Shown: piece after piece, positions 57,291 to 64,000 of the stretch
Layout of the letters: the number at the start of each line of letters is the position of its first letter
Position numbering within the stretch: the stretch's first letter is position 1
Assembly: GCA_021847995.1 (NCBI GenBank)
Contig: JAJZNE010000115.1
Location: 1 to 64,000, forward strand
Length of the DNA: 64,000 bases
Reading direction: 5' to 3'
Source of the DNA: Pseudomonadota bacterium
GTDB taxonomy: Bacteria > Pseudomonadota > Alphaproteobacteria > Acetobacterales > Acetobacteraceae
Made by a program: the position numbers and the translations under genes
Notes under the pieces: generated by a model
Databases searched by the model: none
Told to the model about the DNA's origin: nothing
The model's input: only the letters and a program-made list of their open reading frames with translations

Positions 57291-57344
57291 GACGTGGCCT
57301 CCCGGCTCCGTCAGGAAAACTAGACGTACGAAAAAGTTTACAGA

Positions 57345-57358
57345 TTGATCCAGGTCAA
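57345..57358 (-). promoter_or_regulatory. FNR/FixK-like box upstream of bchE
   Basis: On the bchE strand the site reads TTGACCTGGATCAA; the consensus is TTGAT-N4-ATCAA, so one of ten positions differs. It is 55 bp from the bchE start codon, suitable for activation. Nearby, TGT-N12-ACG starts just after it and is one base short of a PpsR/CrtJ box (TGT-N12-ACA). Position and BchE function support oxygen-dependent control (inference). Confidence 0.55.
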
Positions 57359-57392
57359 CTGGCGCGCCCGGGCGGGCCGCCGGTCGGGGGGG

Positions 57393-57884
57393 TCACTCGT
57401 GCTGCGGCGCCGATGCGTCGGGGCAAAGGCGTCGGCGGATCAGCGCGTCGGCCGACAGCGTTCCGGCCCCCTGGGCCATCAGCAGCAGCAGCAGCCCCGC
57501 CCACTGGATATGCGTGGGCCATGCGGCGGGATAGACGAAAATCTCGATCACCAGCGTCATGCCGAACAGCGCGAGAGCGGCGAGGCGTGTGGCGAGGCCG
57601 AGCAGGAGCAGCGGCGGCGCGGTCACTTCCAGCGCCACCGCAAGTGTGGCGGCGGCGTCGGAGGACAGCAGCGGCACCTGATAGGTATTGGCGAACAGAT
57701 AGAGTGTGGTGTCCCAGTTGCTCAGATGCGTTTGCGCCGAACTCCAGAATACCTGCGCCAGGGCGATGCGCGCGACGAGTGCCACCAGCGCGTAGGGAAT
57801 CGCGCCGAACCATCGCGGCGGCAGGGCGAGGAGCGGAGCGATCCAGGGTCGGTCGGCGATCAGGGCGGGCGGCTTCGTCGGCAT
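57393..57884 (-). CDS. DoxX-family membrane protein of bufferin operon
   Basis: A 163-residue membrane protein with four hydrophobic helices (about 30-50, 75-100, 105-120, 125-145) and the DoxX pattern LVARIALAQVFWSSAQTHLSNW. DoxX genes are frequent last members of DUF692/DUF2063 bufferin operons, sometimes named BufD; the role is unknown, perhaps redox support of the modified peptide. It starts 5 bp after the DUF2063 gene stop and ends the minus-strand operon. Confidence 0.85.
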   Translation of the reverse strand: MPTKPPALIADRPWIAPLLALPPRWFGAIPYALVALVARIALAQVFWSSAQTHLSNWDTTLYLFANTYQVPLLSSDAAATLAVALEVTAPPLLLLGLATRLAALALFGMTLVIEIFVYPAAWPTHIQWAGLLLLLMAQGAGTLSADALIRRRLCPDASAPQHE

Positions 57885-57889
57885 CGCGG

Positions 57890-58687
57890 TCAGTCTCCGT
57901 CATCCGGTCCGGGCGCGTCGGGCACCAGGCAGGCATGGAACAGGCCGTGGCCGATGAAGTCGGCGAGCAGCGACGCCGCCGTGGCCGCCGGCACCTGGCC
58001 GAGCGCCGCGTCGAGCGGCACTCCCTGGCAGAGCGCATGCAGGAAATCGAAGGCAGGAGGCGAGAGCGCCAGCAGCTCCGCTTCACCGTCGCGCCGCAGC
58101 ACCGCCAGCCACTCGCCCGGTCCGCCGGGATCGATCGCGGCAAGTCGGCTGTTGCGCAGCGCTTCCGGCTCGCTCAGCACCGCCTGCCAGATGGCGCGCG
58201 CCGGATGGGCGAGCGCCAGCAGTGACAGCGACGGATGGGCGGCGAAGCGCACGCCTGCCCGGTGCGCCTGCGGCACCGCGTGCAATCCGGCGGCGGTCAG
58301 TGCCGGCACCGCTTCGGCGTGCAGGGCACGGTTCAGCGCCCATTCCAGCCGTGCCACATCGGGCAGATAGGCAAGATCCCGCGCGGCGGAATCGGCGGCA
58401 AGGAAATCGGCAAACTGTGCGCCGTAGCGGTTGAGATCGGCATCGGCCGGCGCGGCGGCGGTGATGAACCGCGTCGCGGCGGCCTCGAAGAACGCGCTGC
58501 CGACCAGTCGCGCGACGGCAGGAAAGCCGAGACGCAGCGCCGCGGTCAGGGTGCCGAACACGTTGTTGCGATAGACGGCAAGGCGCGCCGCGGCGGGCAG
58601 CGCACCGCCGATCACCGAGGTCGGTGGATCACCGCCATCGCACAGGGCGGCACAAAAGCCGCGCTGGAGTTCAAGCAGCGACGGCAT
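57890..58687 (-). CDS. bufC: DUF2063 partner protein of the MNIO enzyme (BufC-like)
   Basis: A 265-residue protein of the DUF2063 (DNA-binding domain-named) family: PSLLELQRGFCAAL at the start and AVYRNNVFGTLTAALRLGFPAVARLVGSAFFEAAATRFI follow, shown here in parts only (YRNNVFGTL, FPAVARLVG). In bufferin clusters this protein presents the precursor peptide to the DUF692 enzyme. The ATG overlaps the end of the bufB gene by 17 bp, a sign of coupling. Cytoplasmic, with no signal peptide. Confidence 0.88.
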   Translation of the reverse strand: MPSLLELQRGFCAALCDGGDPPTSVIGGALPAAARLAVYRNNVFGTLTAALRLGFPAVARLVGSAFFEAAATRFITAAAPADADLNRYGAQFADFLAADSAARDLAYLPDVARLEWALNRALHAEAVPALTAAGLHAVPQAHRAGVRFAAHPSLSLLALAHPARAIWQAVLSEPEALRNSRLAAIDPGGPGEWLAVLRRDGEAELLALSPPAFDFLHALCQGVPLDAALGQVPAATAASLLADFIGHGLFHACLVPDAPGPDDGD

Positions 58688-59543
58688 CGCCGGTATGTCC
58701 GCGGCAGCAGGCCAGACGGCGGTCCGCCTGCGCCGCCTCCTCCAACAGGACGGCGAGCGGAGGCAGCGCGGCATCGCGTTCGATCAGGGTCGGGCGCGGG
58801 CCGATGAGGCGCAGCGCCATCTCGAACAGCGCCCATACCGTCGGCGCGACCGCCCGGTCATGCGTGTCGAGCAGCAGCGGCGTGCCGTTGCCCGCCGGGC
58901 TGTGGCCGGCGAGATGGTATTCCCCGATCGCCTCCGCCGGCAGCGCGCGCAGGTAGCGTTCCGCGTTCCAGCCGTGATTGGTGGTGCTGACCACGATGTT
59001 GTTGACATCGCAGATCAGGCCGCAGCCGGTGCGCGCGGCGAGCGCCGTCAGGAACTCCGGCTCCGGGATCGTCGAATGGCGGAATTGCAGATAGGTGGCG
59101 GGGTTCTCGATCAGGATGCGAAGCCCGAGCGCCGACTGAACGGCATCGACGTTGCGGCAGACGACGGCGAGGCTTTCCTCGGTCAGCGGCAGCGGCAGCA
59201 GGTCGGCGAGGAAGCGATGATCGACCGCGCTCCAGGCGAGATGTTCGGAGCACAGGGACGGTCTGATCCGCCGCGCCAGGGCGGCGATGCGGGCGAGATG
59301 ATGCGGGTTGACGCCCGCCGCGCTGCCGAGCGACAGGCCGACGCCGTGCAGCGATAGCGGGCAAACCTCGCGCACCTCGTCAAGCACGCGCAGTGCCGCC
59401 CCGCCAAGATAGTTTTCGCTGTGCACCTCGACCCAACCGATCCCCGGCGGGCTGCCGAGAAACGCCGCATGATGCGGCGCGCGCAGCCCGATCCCTGCAA
59501 CGGCAGGGATCGGGTCGGCGCCGGCATGCGCAAGGCCTGCCAC
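58671..59543 (-). CDS. bufB: DUF692 multinuclear non-haem iron oxidase (BufB-like)
   Basis: A 290-residue TIM-barrel MNIO enzyme. Iron-ligand motifs are visible in order: GWVEVHSENYLGG (about 38-50), SLHGVGLSLG, LCSEHLAW, ILIENPATYLQF, CDVNNIVVSTTNHGW and EYHLAGHSP followed by LLDTHDRAV. In bufferin systems the enzyme converts Cys residues of the DUF2282 precursor into thiooxazole-type groups that bind copper. The GTG before AGLAHAGAD is 14 bp after the precursor gene stop and is the only start that gives a full-length N-terminus. Confidence 0.92.
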   Translation of the reverse strand: MAGLAHAGADPIPAVAGIGLRAPHHAAFLGSPPGIGWVEVHSENYLGGAALRVLDEVREVCPLSLHGVGLSLGSAAGVNPHHLARIAALARRIRPSLCSEHLAWSAVDHRFLADLLPLPLTEESLAVVCRNVDAVQSALGLRILIENPATYLQFRHSTIPEPEFLTALAARTGCGLICDVNNIVVSTTNHGWNAERYLRALPAEAIGEYHLAGHSPAGNGTPLLLDTHDRAVAPTVWALFEMALRLIGPRPTLIERDAALPPLAVLLEEAAQADRRLACCRGHTGDAVAA

Positions 59544-59557
59544 GGCGCGCCTGCGGC

Positions 59558-59884
59558 TCAGGCCGGCTTGAGCGTGCCGCCGGCGATCTTCTCGCAATCG
59601 CCCGCGGGCAACAGCACGAACGACGCCGGATCGCGCGCCGAGGTCGCCTGACCGGCGCAGGAATGCACGCCAACGGCGCAATCGTTCTTGCCGGCGGCAT
59701 TGATGCCGTAGCAGGCGACGAGATGCTGCAGCATGGCGCGATCCTTGTTCGCCTTCTGCACCTGCATCATCTGGTCCTTGGACATCATCTGCTGTGCCGT
59801 TGCCACGGACGGCGCAAGCGTCGCCGCCCCGGCGGCGCCAATCACGGCAGCGAACACGGAGGAGGCAATCAGTCGGCGATCCAT
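59558..59884 (-). CDS. bufA: DUF2282 bufferin precursor peptide (BufA1-like), Met-rich variant
   Basis: A 108-residue precursor. The signal peptide is about residues 1-30 (ending ATA-QQ). The core has the bufferin Cys pattern: Cys58 (CYGINAAGKNDC), Cys69, Cys76 (HSCAGQA) and Cys97 (DCEKIAGG). Between signal and core is an unusual segment (31-57) with Met33, Met34, Met39, Met40 and Met51. Predicted product: a periplasmic peptide with two or more modified Cys that buffers copper. The ATG with AGGGAGA 9 bp before is chosen; a second ATG 9 bp upstream is too close to that site. Confidence 0.92.
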   Translation of the reverse strand: MDRRLIASSVFAAVIGAAGAATLAPSVATAQQMMSKDQMMQVQKANKDRAMLQHLVACYGINAAGKNDCAVGVHSCAGQATSARDPASFVLLPAGDCEKIAGGTLKPA

Positions 59885-59936
59885 CTGTCTCATTCTCCCT
59901 GTGCAAAGCGGCCCGCTCGCGGTCCGCATCCCCGGA

Positions 59937-59962
59937 TACGTGGGCAGGGAGAAAAAGGTTAC
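59937..59962 (-). promoter_or_regulatory. ECF-type promoter upstream of bufA
   Basis: On the minus strand GTAACC (59962-59957), a 16-bp spacer, then CGTA (59940-59937). GTAACC/CGT-A/T is a typical ECF sigma pattern of alphaproteobacteria and recalls SigF promoters of Caulobacter. The -35 includes the nrsF stop codon TAA. The start of transcription would be about 45 nt before bufA. It fits recognition by the ECF factor encoded upstream. Confidence 0.6.
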
Positions 59963-60636
59963 GCGGTGCCGGGCCGCCGTGCCGGACGTTCGACCAGCGT
60001 CCGGCCGACCGCGGCGGCGAGCACGCTGAGCAGGGCGACCGATCCGAGTTGCCAGATCAGCACCATGATCGCCGCGTCCTCGCGATGATAGAGGCGCAGC
60101 GCCGCGGCGCCGAGGGCCGCGGCGGCCAGCCCGCCGCACAGGCAGGCATTGGTGGCACGCACGCCGGCGCTGCGGCGCAGCAGCACCACCAGCGCCGCCG
60201 CCGGCACGAAACCGCCGAGCGCGATCGCGGGCAGGCACATGAAATCGGTGGTGAGAGCGAAGCCGCCCGCGCCGGCGGTGGAGAGCACGAGCAGGCACTG
60301 CCGCCCGAGCGTGCCGAGCCAGAGCGCGAGCGGCGCCAGCGGCAACCACAGCTTCCAGTCGGGCTGGTCGGGCAGCGCGGCGCAGAAGGCAGCATAGGCC
60401 GCGGCGACGGCGGTGAGCATCGCCGCCGCACCGGCGATCCAGAAGCCGGACTCGCCAAGGCGGGCGGCGAGGTCGGGCCGCAGCCCGAATGCAAAGGCGA
60501 CCGCCGCTGCAGCCGGCAGCGAAACCGCCAGCCAGTATCCGAGGCGGACCGCGGGCGGGGGAAGGCGCCGCACCGGCACGAGGGCGCCGGCAAGCTCGGC
60601 GATCAGGCGTTCCGTCTGCCCTTCAGGGTGCATCAT
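59959..60636 (-). CDS. nrsF: NrsF-family (DUF1109) anti-sigma factor
   Basis: A 225-residue inner-membrane protein with six predicted helices and DUF1109 character: PPAVRLGYWLAVSLPAAAAV, FMCLPAIALGGFVPAAALVVLL and NACLCGGLAAAALG with Cys in FMCLPA and ACLCGG, a pair probably linked to metal or thiol sensing in this family. It holds the ECF sigma factor at the membrane until copper or other metal stress. It overlaps the sigma gene by 14 bp. The first 30 residues are cytoplasmic. Confidence 0.9.
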   Translation of the reverse strand: MMHPEGQTERLIAELAGALVPVRRLPPPAVRLGYWLAVSLPAAAAVAFAFGLRPDLAARLGESGFWIAGAAAMLTAVAAAYAAFCAALPDQPDWKLWLPLAPLALWLGTLGRQCLLVLSTAGAGGFALTTDFMCLPAIALGGFVPAAALVVLLRRSAGVRATNACLCGGLAAAALGAAALRLYHREDAAIMVLIWQLGSVALLSVLAAAVGRTLVERPARRPGTA

Positions 60637-61228
60637 GGTGGTCCGGTCCTTTCACCGCACCGCCGGCCATTTCCGGGCCCAGCATCATCCGGCGCAACGC
60701 CCGCAACCCGCGATGGGTCGCGACCTTGAGGGCCGCGACAGTCATGCCGCTGGTCGCCGACGCCTCCTCCAGCGACAGTTCGGCGAGCTTGGTCAGCTCG
60801 ATCGCCCGGCGCTGTCCGGACGGCAGGCGAGCGATCGCCGCCCGCAGGGAAGCGGCCTCCAGCCCGGCGTCCGGAGTCGTATTCGTCATCAGTGCGCCGG
60901 TGGTTTCAGGGATGGTGTCGATTGGGGTCTCGCGGGCGCCGGCGCGGCGGTACCGGCGCATCGCATCGCCGCCGCGGAAGCGCATGATGCCGAGCAGGAA
61001 CGGCACGAACGGCCGGGCGGGATCATAAAGTCGGCGCGCCGCATGGAGCGCGAGCAGGGTTTCCTGCACCGCATCCTCGATCGCCGCGCCATCCGCCTGC
61101 GGCCAGCGCGCGCGGGCGGCGCGGCGCAGGATCGGCAGCACGGCGGTCAGCAACTGCCCGTAGCGCAGCCGGTCGCCCTGCTGCGCCGCCACCATCCACT
61201 CACGCAAGCGGGGGTCTTCGGCCGTCAT
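60623..61228 (-). CDS. ECF sigma factor (SigF-like)
   Basis: A 201-residue ECF sigma factor. Region 2 is about 25-95 (DAVQETLLALHAARRLYDPARPFVPFLLGIMRFRGGD, cited in parts: VQETLLALH, FVPFLLGI) and region 4 about 130-185 (RLPSGQRRAIELTKLAELSLEEAS, then VAALKVATHRGLRALRR). Its pairing with a DUF1109 anti-sigma and a bufferin operon matches the SigF-NrsF group. The ATG before TAEDPRLREW was used; the frame upstream lies in the intergenic repeat. Confidence 0.93.
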   Translation of the reverse strand: MTAEDPRLREWMVAAQQGDRLRYGQLLTAVLPILRRAARARWPQADGAAIEDAVQETLLALHAARRLYDPARPFVPFLLGIMRFRGGDAMRRYRRAGARETPIDTIPETTGALMTNTTPDAGLEAASLRAAIARLPSGQRRAIELTKLAELSLEEASATSGMTVAALKVATHRGLRALRRMMLGPEMAGGAVKGPDHHDAP

Positions 61229-61292
61229 GGCTCCGGTTTCCGGTCGCTGCCTTATAGCTTCGGCTCCGGCCGGTGCGAAGATGCGGGAGGTC

Positions 61293-61444
61293 TCATACCA
61301 GCCGCCCTTTGAGTTGACCCATCTGCGATGGGTCAACGGCGGCCGGTATGATTCATATTTCGCGCGCCGCCGCCCACCAACCCGGCGCGCATACCAAGCG
61401 CCGTAAAGGCCGGAAGAATCGGCCTTTAGGGCGCCTGGTATCAG
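61293..61444. repeat. Hairpin-bearing intergenic repeat, copy 2
   Basis: About 150 bp similar to 30119-30268. Left hairpin: TTGACCCATC (61314-61323), loop TGC, GATGGGTCAA (61327-61336), flanked by GCCGCC/GGCGGC and CATACC/GGTATG, which makes a long imperfect stem. The right part is the conserved block. The ends TCATACCAG and CTGGTATCA form near-perfect terminal inverted repeats (8 of 9). The stop codon of the TadE-like gene is in the right end. Confidence 0.72.
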
Positions 61445-61845
61445 TTCTGGACGGTCAGCGTGATCGTGCTTGTGAGGGTGACGTCCGACAGGACGAGCGT
61501 CGGTACCGTCGGCTTCCATGGGAAGCTCGCCGTCACCGTCACGGTGCCGCCGACCTGGTAGCTCGGGCTGAAGGTGACGTTCACCGTGCAGGTGCCGCAA
61601 CTGCCGAGCAGCGGCTGCACTGCATCGCTGAACTGGGCGGTGATGGTGTTCGTGGTCGCCGTGCTGCTGTTGACGATGGCATAGCGTGCCGCAACGGCGA
61701 CGCCGCGGTCGAGCGCATGCTGATCGCCCATCATGCGTCCGACATCCATGAGGCCGACCAGCAGCATCAGCACCAGCGGCAGCACCACGCCGAATTCCAG
61801 CGCCACGCTGCCGTGCCGGTCGCGAATGAGAGGCGGCATGGTCAT
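61441..61845 (-). CDS. TadE-like pilus assembly protein
   Basis: A 134-residue protein with the TadE start RDRHGSVALEFGVVLPLVLMLLVGLMDVGR: a short cytoplasmic head, Gly-Ser-x-Ala-hh-E cleavage-like site, and a membrane helix, then a periplasmic domain with one CGTC pair that could form a disulfide. It belongs to minor pseudopilins of Tad/Flp systems. It overlaps the upstream TadE-like gene (ATGA). Its last codon falls in the intergenic repeat. Confidence 0.85.
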   Translation of the reverse strand: MTMPPLIRDRHGSVALEFGVVLPLVLMLLVGLMDVGRMMGDQHALDRGVAVAARYAIVNSSTATTNTITAQFSDAVQPLLGSCGTCTVNVTFSPSYQVGGTVTVTASFPWKPTVPTLVLSDVTLTSTITLTVQN

Positions 61846-62312
61846 TGCAGCCGCGCCGTCGCACTGCTGGAGATGGTGTACGGCGAGGCGACGCCGGGCA
61901 GCGGCATCGGCAGCGTGAACACGGCACTGACCGAGACGGTGACGAACTCCGTCAGGACATCGCCCGAGGAGCAGGTGGTGCTGCAACTGACCGCGCTCGC
62001 GCTGCCGCGGTCCCAGCTGGACGAACTGGGCAGACAGTAGCAGGCGGTGCTGGCGGTGACGGTAGGGGCGGGCAGGGCGGTGCCGTAGGCGGCGGTGGCG
62101 GCGCTTTCCATGCCGCTCGCGCTCGGGCCGGTGCCGAAGGCATAGAGCAGCGCGGCCTGCTCGGCCCGCGACGCGGCGGCCCAGCCGGCCAGAATCAGGC
62201 CGAAATCCGCGGCGCCGCCGAGCATCGGCACCAGCAGCAGTCCGCCGACCAGTGCCGTCTCCATCGCCGCGACGCCGCGCCGGTCGCGCAGCAGGGAGGA
62301 ACCGCGGATCAT
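61842..62312 (-). CDS. TadE/TadG-like protein
   Basis: A 156-residue protein with an N-terminal RDRRGVAAMETALVGGLLLVPMLGGAADFG segment of the TadE type (charged head, Glu in the helix). The periplasmic part contains Cys-rich CYCLPSSSSW and SCSTTCSSG with four Cys. It is coupled at both ends by 4-bp overlaps (ATGA). Probable membrane-anchored component of a Tad-like apparatus; no Tad ATPase or secretin genes are in the window. Confidence 0.82.
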   Translation of the reverse strand: MIRGSSLLRDRRGVAAMETALVGGLLLVPMLGGAADFGLILAGWAAASRAEQAALLYAFGTGPSASGMESAATAAYGTALPAPTVTASTACYCLPSSSSWDRGSASAVSCSTTCSSGDVLTEFVTVSVSAVFTLPMPLPGVASPYTISSSATARLQ

Positions 62313-63637
62313 TGCATCAGCACCACCTTGCTGCTGCCGCTGTTCGACGAGCCGGCCGAGGCGGCCGAGATGCCGGCGGAGCCGGCGACTTCGATCGTGT
62401 CGGCGATCACGCTCATGCTGTCGCCGGGAGCGGCATCCAGATGGGCATTGTTGCTCAGGTTGAGCGCACCGCAGGGCATGTAGATCGAGCCGGACACGTT
62501 CAGTGTCGATCCGCCGGCGAAGGGATCGTAGATCGTGCTGGCCGGGTTCCCTCCTGAGCCGCAGGTCTGCCAGACGAGCATCCCCGCGGTGGGGCCGCTG
62601 GTCGGCGCCGACATCTGCGTCGGGGTGTTGGAGTAGTTGGTCCAGTTGAACGACCCCGGCGATGAGCCGGTGAGCACGAACGTCACGCCGCTGGCCTGGG
62701 TGATCGTGGCATTGTTGAAGACCAGACTGCCGTTGACCACGTAGTAGATCCCCGGTGAGAACACATCCGTGCTGCCGTTGCCGCCGATCGTGGTGTTGCC
62801 GCAAAAGACGGTGCCGCCGGAGAATTGATAGGGGGTGCTTTTCCAGGCGGTGAAACTGGTCCCCGACGGATAGCTGCAACTTCCCGGTGAGGGCGCTGTC
62901 TTGCCCGAATAGGGATCGGATTGGGGCGCTGCGTTGCTGGTCGGATTGCTTGGGGAAAGAGTGTTGCTGCCGCTGTTCGACTGATTGACCGATCCGACGG
63001 CACCGATGCTGGGGCCGCTGATGGTTCCGCTGTTGAGGTAGATGGCGCCGCCCGAACTCTGACCGGAGACGCTGGCCGTCGAATTGGAGAAGATTCCGCA
63101 TCCGCTGGTGACGATGCTGCCCATGTTGTTGACCCAGATCGCGTTGGACGCGGACGGGCTGAGCGCCAGCACGCAGGGGCCGCTCGGCTTGGTGCCGGCG
63201 GTTGCGGTCGCCTTCAGGGTCGGGGCGGCGAGGCTAAGGGCGGCGGCGAGGAAGCCGTCGGCGGTGGCGCTCAGAGTGACCGTGACCGTCGAGCCACTGG
63301 TGCTGACTGTGACCGGGGTCATGAGTTTGCCGATCACGGCACTGCTGCTTGCGTCCTTCGCCGCCTGCAAGGCGGCGTCCTGCAGGTCGGACGTGCTCGG
63401 GCTGTTCGGCAGCAGCAGGGCAGCGCCATAGGCGGCGGCGTCTGCGGCGACCTGAAGGCGCTGCTGCTCCACGTAATAGAATCCGGCATCGACGGCGAGT
63501 GCGGCGGCACCGAACACCGCCGGCAGGGCGAGTGCGATCAGCGGCGCGATCGCCCCGCGCCGGTCGCGCCGCAGCCGCCGCGCCCGCGCCGCGAGCGTTG
63601 CACGAAAGATATGTAAATGATGCCGGATAGTATTCAT
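62309..63637 (-). CDS. TadG-like membrane-anchored surface protein
   Basis: A 442-residue protein. The Tad N-terminal motif is RRDRRGAIAPLIALALPAVFG (about 25-45) with AVDAGFYYVEQQRLQVAADAAA after it, as in TadG/von Willebrand-type Tad proteins. The rest (about 150-442) is Ser/Gly/Thr/Asn-rich, beta-like, with repeated SGS, GNGSTDVF and TYDPF-like motifs, and resembles polymorphic secreted regions. ATG at 63637 preferred to GTG at 63640. It starts the three-gene operon. GC content falls in this gene. Confidence 0.8.
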   Translation of the reverse strand: MNTIRHHLHIFRATLAARARRLRRDRRGAIAPLIALALPAVFGAAALAVDAGFYYVEQQRLQVAADAAAYGAALLLPNSPSTSDLQDAALQAAKDASSSAVIGKLMTPVTVSTSGSTVTVTLSATADGFLAAALSLAAPTLKATATAGTKPSGPCVLALSPSASNAIWVNNMGSIVTSGCGIFSNSTASVSGQSSGGAIYLNSGTISGPSIGAVGSVNQSNSGSNTLSPSNPTSNAAPQSDPYSGKTAPSPGSCSYPSGTSFTAWKSTPYQFSGGTVFCGNTTIGGNGSTDVFSPGIYYVVNGSLVFNNATITQASGVTFVLTGSSPGSFNWTNYSNTPTQMSAPTSGPTAGMLVWQTCGSGGNPASTIYDPFAGGSTLNVSGSIYMPCGALNLSNNAHLDAAPGDSMSVIADTIEVAGSAGISAASAGSSNSGSSKVVLMQ

Positions 63638-64000
63638 CACCCGTGTCTGGTTTGGTGCTGTTCCAGTCCGTTGCAGCGGCAGCAGCCCACCGGCAGCCGT
63701 ATAGATACTATCGAAACGGTTTGCAAGTCCCCTGATCCTGCGACATGGCTGATGATGTCTGCGGAATTGTGGTGCTGTCGCGGCAGCGGAGGGAATGGAA
63801 CGGCGGACACCAGCCTCCCGCGGACCGGCGGGACGATCGTTATGAAAAATTATTAATCTCGTACAAGTCGTATCGTATGCGAACAGTCACAATAAAATCT
63901 GCAGCGGCGGGTAGATTTTAGGCAGTCCTTAATTCAACTCCTCTTGCAAAGTGTCTGGGTTGCGGCTTATCTTGCGTCCGGCTGCGGAAGGTTCTTCGAT
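63638..64000. other. Non-coding region upstream of TadG operon
   Basis: A 363-bp stretch with lower GC than the rest of the window. It contains TTACACATTT-like and TAATCTCGTACAAG-like AT-rich parts but no open frame with coding character, no tRNA and no convincing hairpin terminator. It probably holds the promoter of the TadG operon; I cannot identify its position. Confidence 0.5.

Follow-up and report, generated by a model that had tools for sequence, protein, structure and literature searches.

The window, as we call the whole 64,000-nucleotide stretch of acetobacterial DNA that was analysed, carries six genes on its minus strand in the order sigF, nrsF, bufA, bufB, bufC and doxX (Table 1). 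A sequence-only reading of the locus had proposed this order, with a 14 bp overlap of sigF and nrsF, a 17 bp overlap of bufB and bufC and a gap of 5 bp between bufC and doxX at the end, and the open reading frames, their translations and their coordinates bear all of this out; counted from the second in-frame ATG, at 60633, the sigF/nrsF overlap would be 11 bp. We took bufA to start at the ATG at 59884, which lies at a normal distance from the sequence AGGGAG, the ATG at 59893 being too close to it. Profile searches covering DUF2282, DUF692, DUF2063 and DUF1109 placed all six genes above the Pfam cut-offs, and the DUF2282, MNIO and NrsF genes are present in one copy each in the 4.27-Mb assembly. 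The ECF sigma factor gene adjoins that of a six-TM PF06532 protein, and in related loci sigF invariably lies immediately ahead of nrsF. The complete gene order sigF-nrsF-bufA-B-C-doxX also recurs in the related loci L006, L007, L008, L012 and L013, and is therefore not a matter of chance.

Table 1. Features of the bufferin cluster in the window, and cysteine-rich peptide genes in related loci.
Feature	Coordinates	Strand	Evidence
sigF, ECF sigma factor, 201 aa	60623..61228	-	Sigma70_r2 and Sigma70_r4_2 above Pfam cut-off
nrsF, six-TM anti-sigma factor, 225 aa	59959..60636	-	PF06532, 84 bits (cut-off 26.8); alignments, Cys classes; AF2 six helices
sigma-F promoter, GTAACC-N16-CGTA	59937..59962	-	genome pattern count; 12-locus footprint; Caulobacter box
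bufA 5' leader, possible short hairpin	59901..59934	-	hairpin predictions in 12 leaders
bufA, Buf1/DUF2282 precursor, 108 aa	59558..59884	-	PF10048, 69.8 bits (cut-off 22.4); homologue alignment
bufB, MNIO maturase, GTG start	58671..59543	-	PF05114, 320 bits (cut-off 25); NCBIfam MNIO_BufB; invariant ligands; 3BWW homologue
bufC, PME-type-1 partner (DUF2063 and RRE-like domain)	57890..58687	-	PF09836, 81 bits (cut-off 27.2); AF2; Foldseek
doxX, membrane protein of bufferin clusters	57393..57884	-	PF07681, 51 bits (cut-off 23.6); position conserved in related loci
CAGK-repeat peptide ORFs	L010:2673-2903, L011:2975-3172, L015:1293-1496, L017:2635-2820	-	

The precursor BufA has the four DUF2282 cysteines in their usual spacing when aligned with its homologues (ACYG, DCA, SCAG and DCEK). 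Its Sec-type signal peptide, MDRRLIASSVFAAVIGAAGAATLAPSVATA, was recognised by inspection and has an n-, an h- and a c-region and an ATA/Q cleavage site. BufB scores 344.7 bits against the NCBIfam model MNIO_BufB (cut-off 310) and aligns with MNIO proteins whose structures are known (3BWW, TglH and MbnB). Residues H66, H101, E146, D179, N182, H210, D226, H228 and E255 do not vary across 81 BufB sequences. Both the precursor cysteines and the iron-ligand motifs noticed earlier stand. At the site of Arg15-Arg16 in FonB there is a single arginine (R21), in agreement with the loss of Arg16 conservation in DUF2282 MNIOs (PMC13097082). An AF2 model of BufC (pLDDT 93, from 24 homologues) matched partner chain A of TglHI (8hci, 8hi7) and NGO1945 (3dee) in Foldseek, and one domain of about 70 residues gave a weak match to the RRE protein TbiB1. 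The parts found here are those described as defining a Buf1 cluster, the characterised products of which bind copper through thiooxazoles (PMC12452194); by analogy with these relatives the BufA product would also carry thiooxazoles and bind copper.

The nrsF stop codon supplies the TAA of the -35 box of a sigma-F promoter that lies between nrsF and bufA, an overlap common to the window, L006 and L012. This promoter shares the exact -35 box and spacing of the experimentally mapped Caulobacter sigma-F box, GTAACC-N16-CGAA (PMC3511200), but departs from it by one change at the -10 (CGTA, not CGAA); L013 shows the same CGT. All 12 aligned acetobacterial bufA upstream regions (window, L006-L015 and L017) carry GTAACCTT unchanged, with collinear and with divergent sigF-nrsF alike, and the same box stands ahead of bufA in the Gallionella-type loci L034, L040, L044 and L045. 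The pattern GTAACC-N14-18-CGTAT has one site in the genome, against five for the reversed control. Upstream of sigF, between 61229 and 61450, no sigma-F box was found within two mismatches. Since a sigma-F box lies between nrsF and bufA and none ahead of sigF, bufA to doxX probably form a separate, sigma-F-driven unit, making two transcription units in all. The "complete operon" of the sequence-only reading is thus whole as a gene set but probably divided in transcription.

A wider sigma-F regulon in this genome was considered and rejected. The relaxed pattern GTAACC-N15-17-CGWA matches at 6 sites and its reversed control at 26, so the sites other than that of bufA are at or below chance; one of them, on contig C95 and 57 bp ahead of an ORF some 296 aa long, is a weak candidate. 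A hairpin was predicted between the start site and the RBS in all of the bufA leaders of the window, L006-L015 and L017 (12/12, mean z -2.2). As an RNA element it is a weak candidate and was set aside, RNAalifold giving no consensus structure for the leaders and the hairpin of the window leader alone (z -0.46) being no more stable than shuffles.

Profiles, synteny, active-site conservation, the predicted fold of BufC and the conserved sigma-F promoter all support the earlier assignment of the locus to the bufferin, MNIO, DUF2063, DoxX and SigF-NrsF families, and we conclude that it is a genuine and complete Buf1 (DUF2282) bufferin gene set under SigF-NrsF. To that reading our analysis adds the internal promoter and a changed set of cysteines in NrsF.

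The altered NrsF, a putative sensor, is the most interesting part of the cluster. Its cysteines are C85, C114, C134 and C165-x-C167. Of the two conserved cysteines of Caulobacter NrsF, C131 is present as C134, and the equivalent of C181, the second classical cysteine, is replaced by H184; the protein is a variant of its family, which its PF06532 match supports, and not a classical two-Cys NrsF. Three cysteine classes can be distinguished among 69 rows from Acetobacterales and two Gallionellaceae: a classical class with C134 and a cysteine at 184 (window numbering), corresponding to the Caulobacter C131/C181 pair; a "CCH" class with C114, C134 and H184; and the window type with C85, C114, C134, C165-x-C167 and H184, found in 22 distinct Acetobacterales genomes. 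The window-type set is exact in 18 of these 22, the other four having one or two changes at the C85/C165 positions, and H184 stands in place of C181 in all 22 distinct variant sequences. A quick tree with long deep branches, built without the columns that define the cysteine classes, set the classical class apart from the rest (SH-aLRT 98). The window-type gene is linked to an MNIO gene within about 4.5 kb in 15 of the 22 genomes, and the classical type is MNIO-linked in 3 of 30 rows. Strict coupling of the variant to bufferins was rejected, as 7 of the 22 variant genomes are without an MNIO gene; six of these seven unlinked genomes belong to one genus that has none.

An AF2 model of NrsF (pLDDT 74) has six helices, at residues 28-50, 63-86, 100-121, 134-153, 160-183 and 189-215; no fold match was obtained at E ≤ 0.001. 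Because the distribution of positive charges (9 against 3) favours an N-in orientation, this moderate-confidence model would direct C114, C134 and H184 towards the periplasm and place C85 and C165-x-C167 at the cytoplasmic face. In Bradyrhizobium OsrA, C129 is needed to hold the sigma factor and C179 for its release by H2O2 (PMC3420878). As C129 aligns with C134 and C179 with H184, window NrsF appears to have kept the holding cysteine and lost the release cysteine. It is possible, though we regard it as doubtful, that acetobacterial NrsF has been rewired into an anti-sigma factor that senses metal. The redox-type C131/C181 switch would then have been replaced by a periplasmic C114-C134-H184 set and a cytoplasmic-face C85/C165-x-C167 set, and SigF would be freed when Cu(I) binds, possibly with sensing at both membrane faces. 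We found no description of this Cys/His rearrangement in the open-access literature searched.

Downstream of the cluster lie bchE (TIGR02026, 791 bits) and bchJ (TIGR02019), and two adjacent photosynthetic reaction-centre genes are found on contig C46 of the same assembly; the host is therefore a phototroph, as was proposed when it was described as a phototrophic Acetobacteraceae relative. We discarded the idea of a conserved link between the buf genes and bchE/bchJ, tblastn with BchE and BchJ giving no match in the flanks of the related loci and the BufB positive control giving 83. In the gap between doxX and bchE (window 57291-57392), TTGACCTGGATCAA was judged by eye to come close in sequence to an FNR-type box, and is followed by TGT-N12-ACG, near a PpsR-like pattern; bchE probably has its own oxygen-regulated promoter. 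On the other side, about 60 bp upstream of sigF (window 61290-61443), a MITE-like repeat some 155 bp long is dispersed through the genome, where it has 38 matches; its ends are imperfect inverted repeats, TACCAG(G/C)CGCCCT, and a TGA flanks it on each side. Beyond it, translations inspected by eye suggested TadE/TadG-like pilus-assembly genes (window 61441-63640). Within the genus the cluster is patchy, the MNIO gene being present in two of five genomes; the other MNIO-bearing genome (G280) has a divergent cluster, with a BufB 60% identical and an NrsF that lacks the CxC.

Related loci contain further candidate sigma-F targets. Directly behind sigma-F-type boxes are genes for small secreted Cys-rich CAGK-repeat peptides (for example ...CAGKTGACAGKTGACAGK; Table 1), and in L133 and L134 an ORF for a 72-aa peptide of this kind follows such a box at 94 bp. 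None of the CAGK-repeat peptides scored above a Pfam or NCBIfam cut-off. As the genus of L133 and L134 yielded no MNIO gene, their peptides may bind metal without modification or be processed by some other enzyme. A gene for a periplasmic thioredoxin-like protein, divergent from sigF, was observed in L008 (1054-1452, minus strand) and, on the minus strand, in L122, 97 bp after a box at 840; the presence of such a gene with its own GTAACC box (L007/L122, L008/L124) suggests a wider sigma-F regulon in relatives. L008 (L124, G366) also has two tandem bufA genes and several sigma-F-type boxes in one locus.

We consider it very likely that the locus encodes a bufferin of the Buf1 type (a 5-thiooxazole RiPP, or "captophorin") together with an ECF sigma/anti-sigma switch of its own. 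In unstressed cells NrsF would keep SigF at the membrane; excess periplasmic copper, or another thiophilic metal, would act on NrsF and free SigF, and RNA polymerase would then start at the box between nrsF and bufA to give a bufA-bufB-bufC-doxX transcript. BufC would present precursor BufA to BufB, and this MNIO would convert the two central cysteines into thiooxazoles by oxidation, still within the cytoplasm. After Sec export of the product its outer cysteines would form a disulphide, and copper would be buffered in the periplasm. The sigF-nrsF pair would probably be expressed apart, without sigma-F feedback. Modification, copper binding, inducer and release mechanism are here modelled on the relatives of the cluster. 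Its putative copper role is a good inference from that analogy, because the orthologous SigF regulon of Caulobacter (DUF2282/DUF692/DoxX) is copper-induced and a sigF mutant is copper-sensitive (PMC8224329), and because copper is chelated by bufferins (PMC12452194). The inducer may nevertheless be something other than copper, since in Caulobacter SigF responds to chromate and cadmium as well, and the homologous Bradyrhizobium pair to H2O2; the signal read by NrsF may also differ, because the cysteine needed for stress release of OsrA (C179; PMC3420878) is absent.

The same machinery could instead serve a switch that answers oxidants such as H2O2 or hypochlorite, and not metal, with a peptide that mainly guards against redox stress. 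We think this unlikely: the response of EcfF-OsrA of B. japonicum to H2O2 (PMC3420878), the thioredoxin-like gene that has a sigma-F-like box to itself in L007/L122 and L008/L124 and the ties of DoxX elsewhere to oxidative or sulphur stress (PMC12452194) speak for it, but the cysteine on which that H2O2 response depends is a histidine here, DUF2282/MNIO targets point to metal buffering, and induction of the Caulobacter regulon by Cr and Cd, which accompanies that by Cu, is independent of oxidative stress. Rather less likely still is an intact cluster whose precursor escapes modification, or whose metal is not copper but gold, silver or mercury. For this speak the induction of the related Cupriavidus gig cluster by Au and Ag as well as Cu (quoted in PMC8224329) and the existence of MerC-bufferin fusions (PMC12452194), whereas the BufB equivalog score above cut-off, the full ligand set, the intact partner and the copper binding of characterised Buf1 products (PMC12452194) argue for a modified, copper-binding peptide. 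Least probable of all is a single operon read from a promoter upstream of sigF, with a fortuitous internal GTAACC match, since the tight, overlapping gene packing and the collinearity of sigF, nrsF and buf genes in several relatives that would suit it are outweighed by a box that has no second match in the genome, shows the mapped Caulobacter -35 and spacing, and is kept even at loci with a divergent or distant sigF-nrsF (L010, L011, L014).

With the bufferin cluster as the preferred reading, most of the locus is as expected, its biosynthetic genes being one more member of a family with thousands of examples, and the Cys/His change in NrsF is the one testable surprise. In Caulobacter both NrsF cysteines were mutated, which left the mechanism unsettled and a direct role of other residues possible (PMC3511200). 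A natural NrsF family that has lost the putative release cysteine and gained a strictly conserved Cys/His set offers a clean comparative handle on metal sensing. A phototroph genome with one sigma-F box would also be a simple system in which to ask whether copper-sensitive steps, such as haem and bacteriochlorophyll synthesis, are protected by bufferins.

Compared with the Buf1 bufferins or captophorins (thiooxazole RiPPs made with an MNIO and a PME-type-1 partner), the cluster is alike in its four-Cys DUF2282 precursor with a Sec signal, its MNIO with complete ligands, its DUF2063-RRE partner and its DoxX, and the biosynthetic genes, known here as genes, have no distinguishing feature. Linkage of Buf1 clusters to SigF/NrsF is likewise a described arrangement (PMC12452194). 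Caulobacter vibrioides (CC3252-CC3257 and CC2905-CC2907) has the same gene families, a terminal DoxX and a single SigF-NrsF pair, but two buf clusters where the window has one; here sigF-nrsF is collinear with and directly upstream of bufA, the promoter lies at the nrsF stop codon, and NrsF has a histidine for C181 and four additional cysteines. The OsrA protein of the Bradyrhizobium japonicum EcfF-OsrA pair (ECF group 16, DUF1109) is a six-TM anti-sigma factor of the same family, in which C179 is the only cysteine other than C129; it lacks C85, C114 and the CxC set, and the regulon is different. Acidocella and the related acetobacterial loci L010, L011, L014, L015 and L017 have BufB proteins 64-67% identical, the same promoter and, in those that include nrsF (L010, L011, L014), the same NrsF cysteine set as the window; they differ in the placing of sigF-nrsF, which runs divergently from the buf genes or lies at a distance, and in their extra sigma-F-type boxes ahead of CAGK-repeat peptides and transporters.
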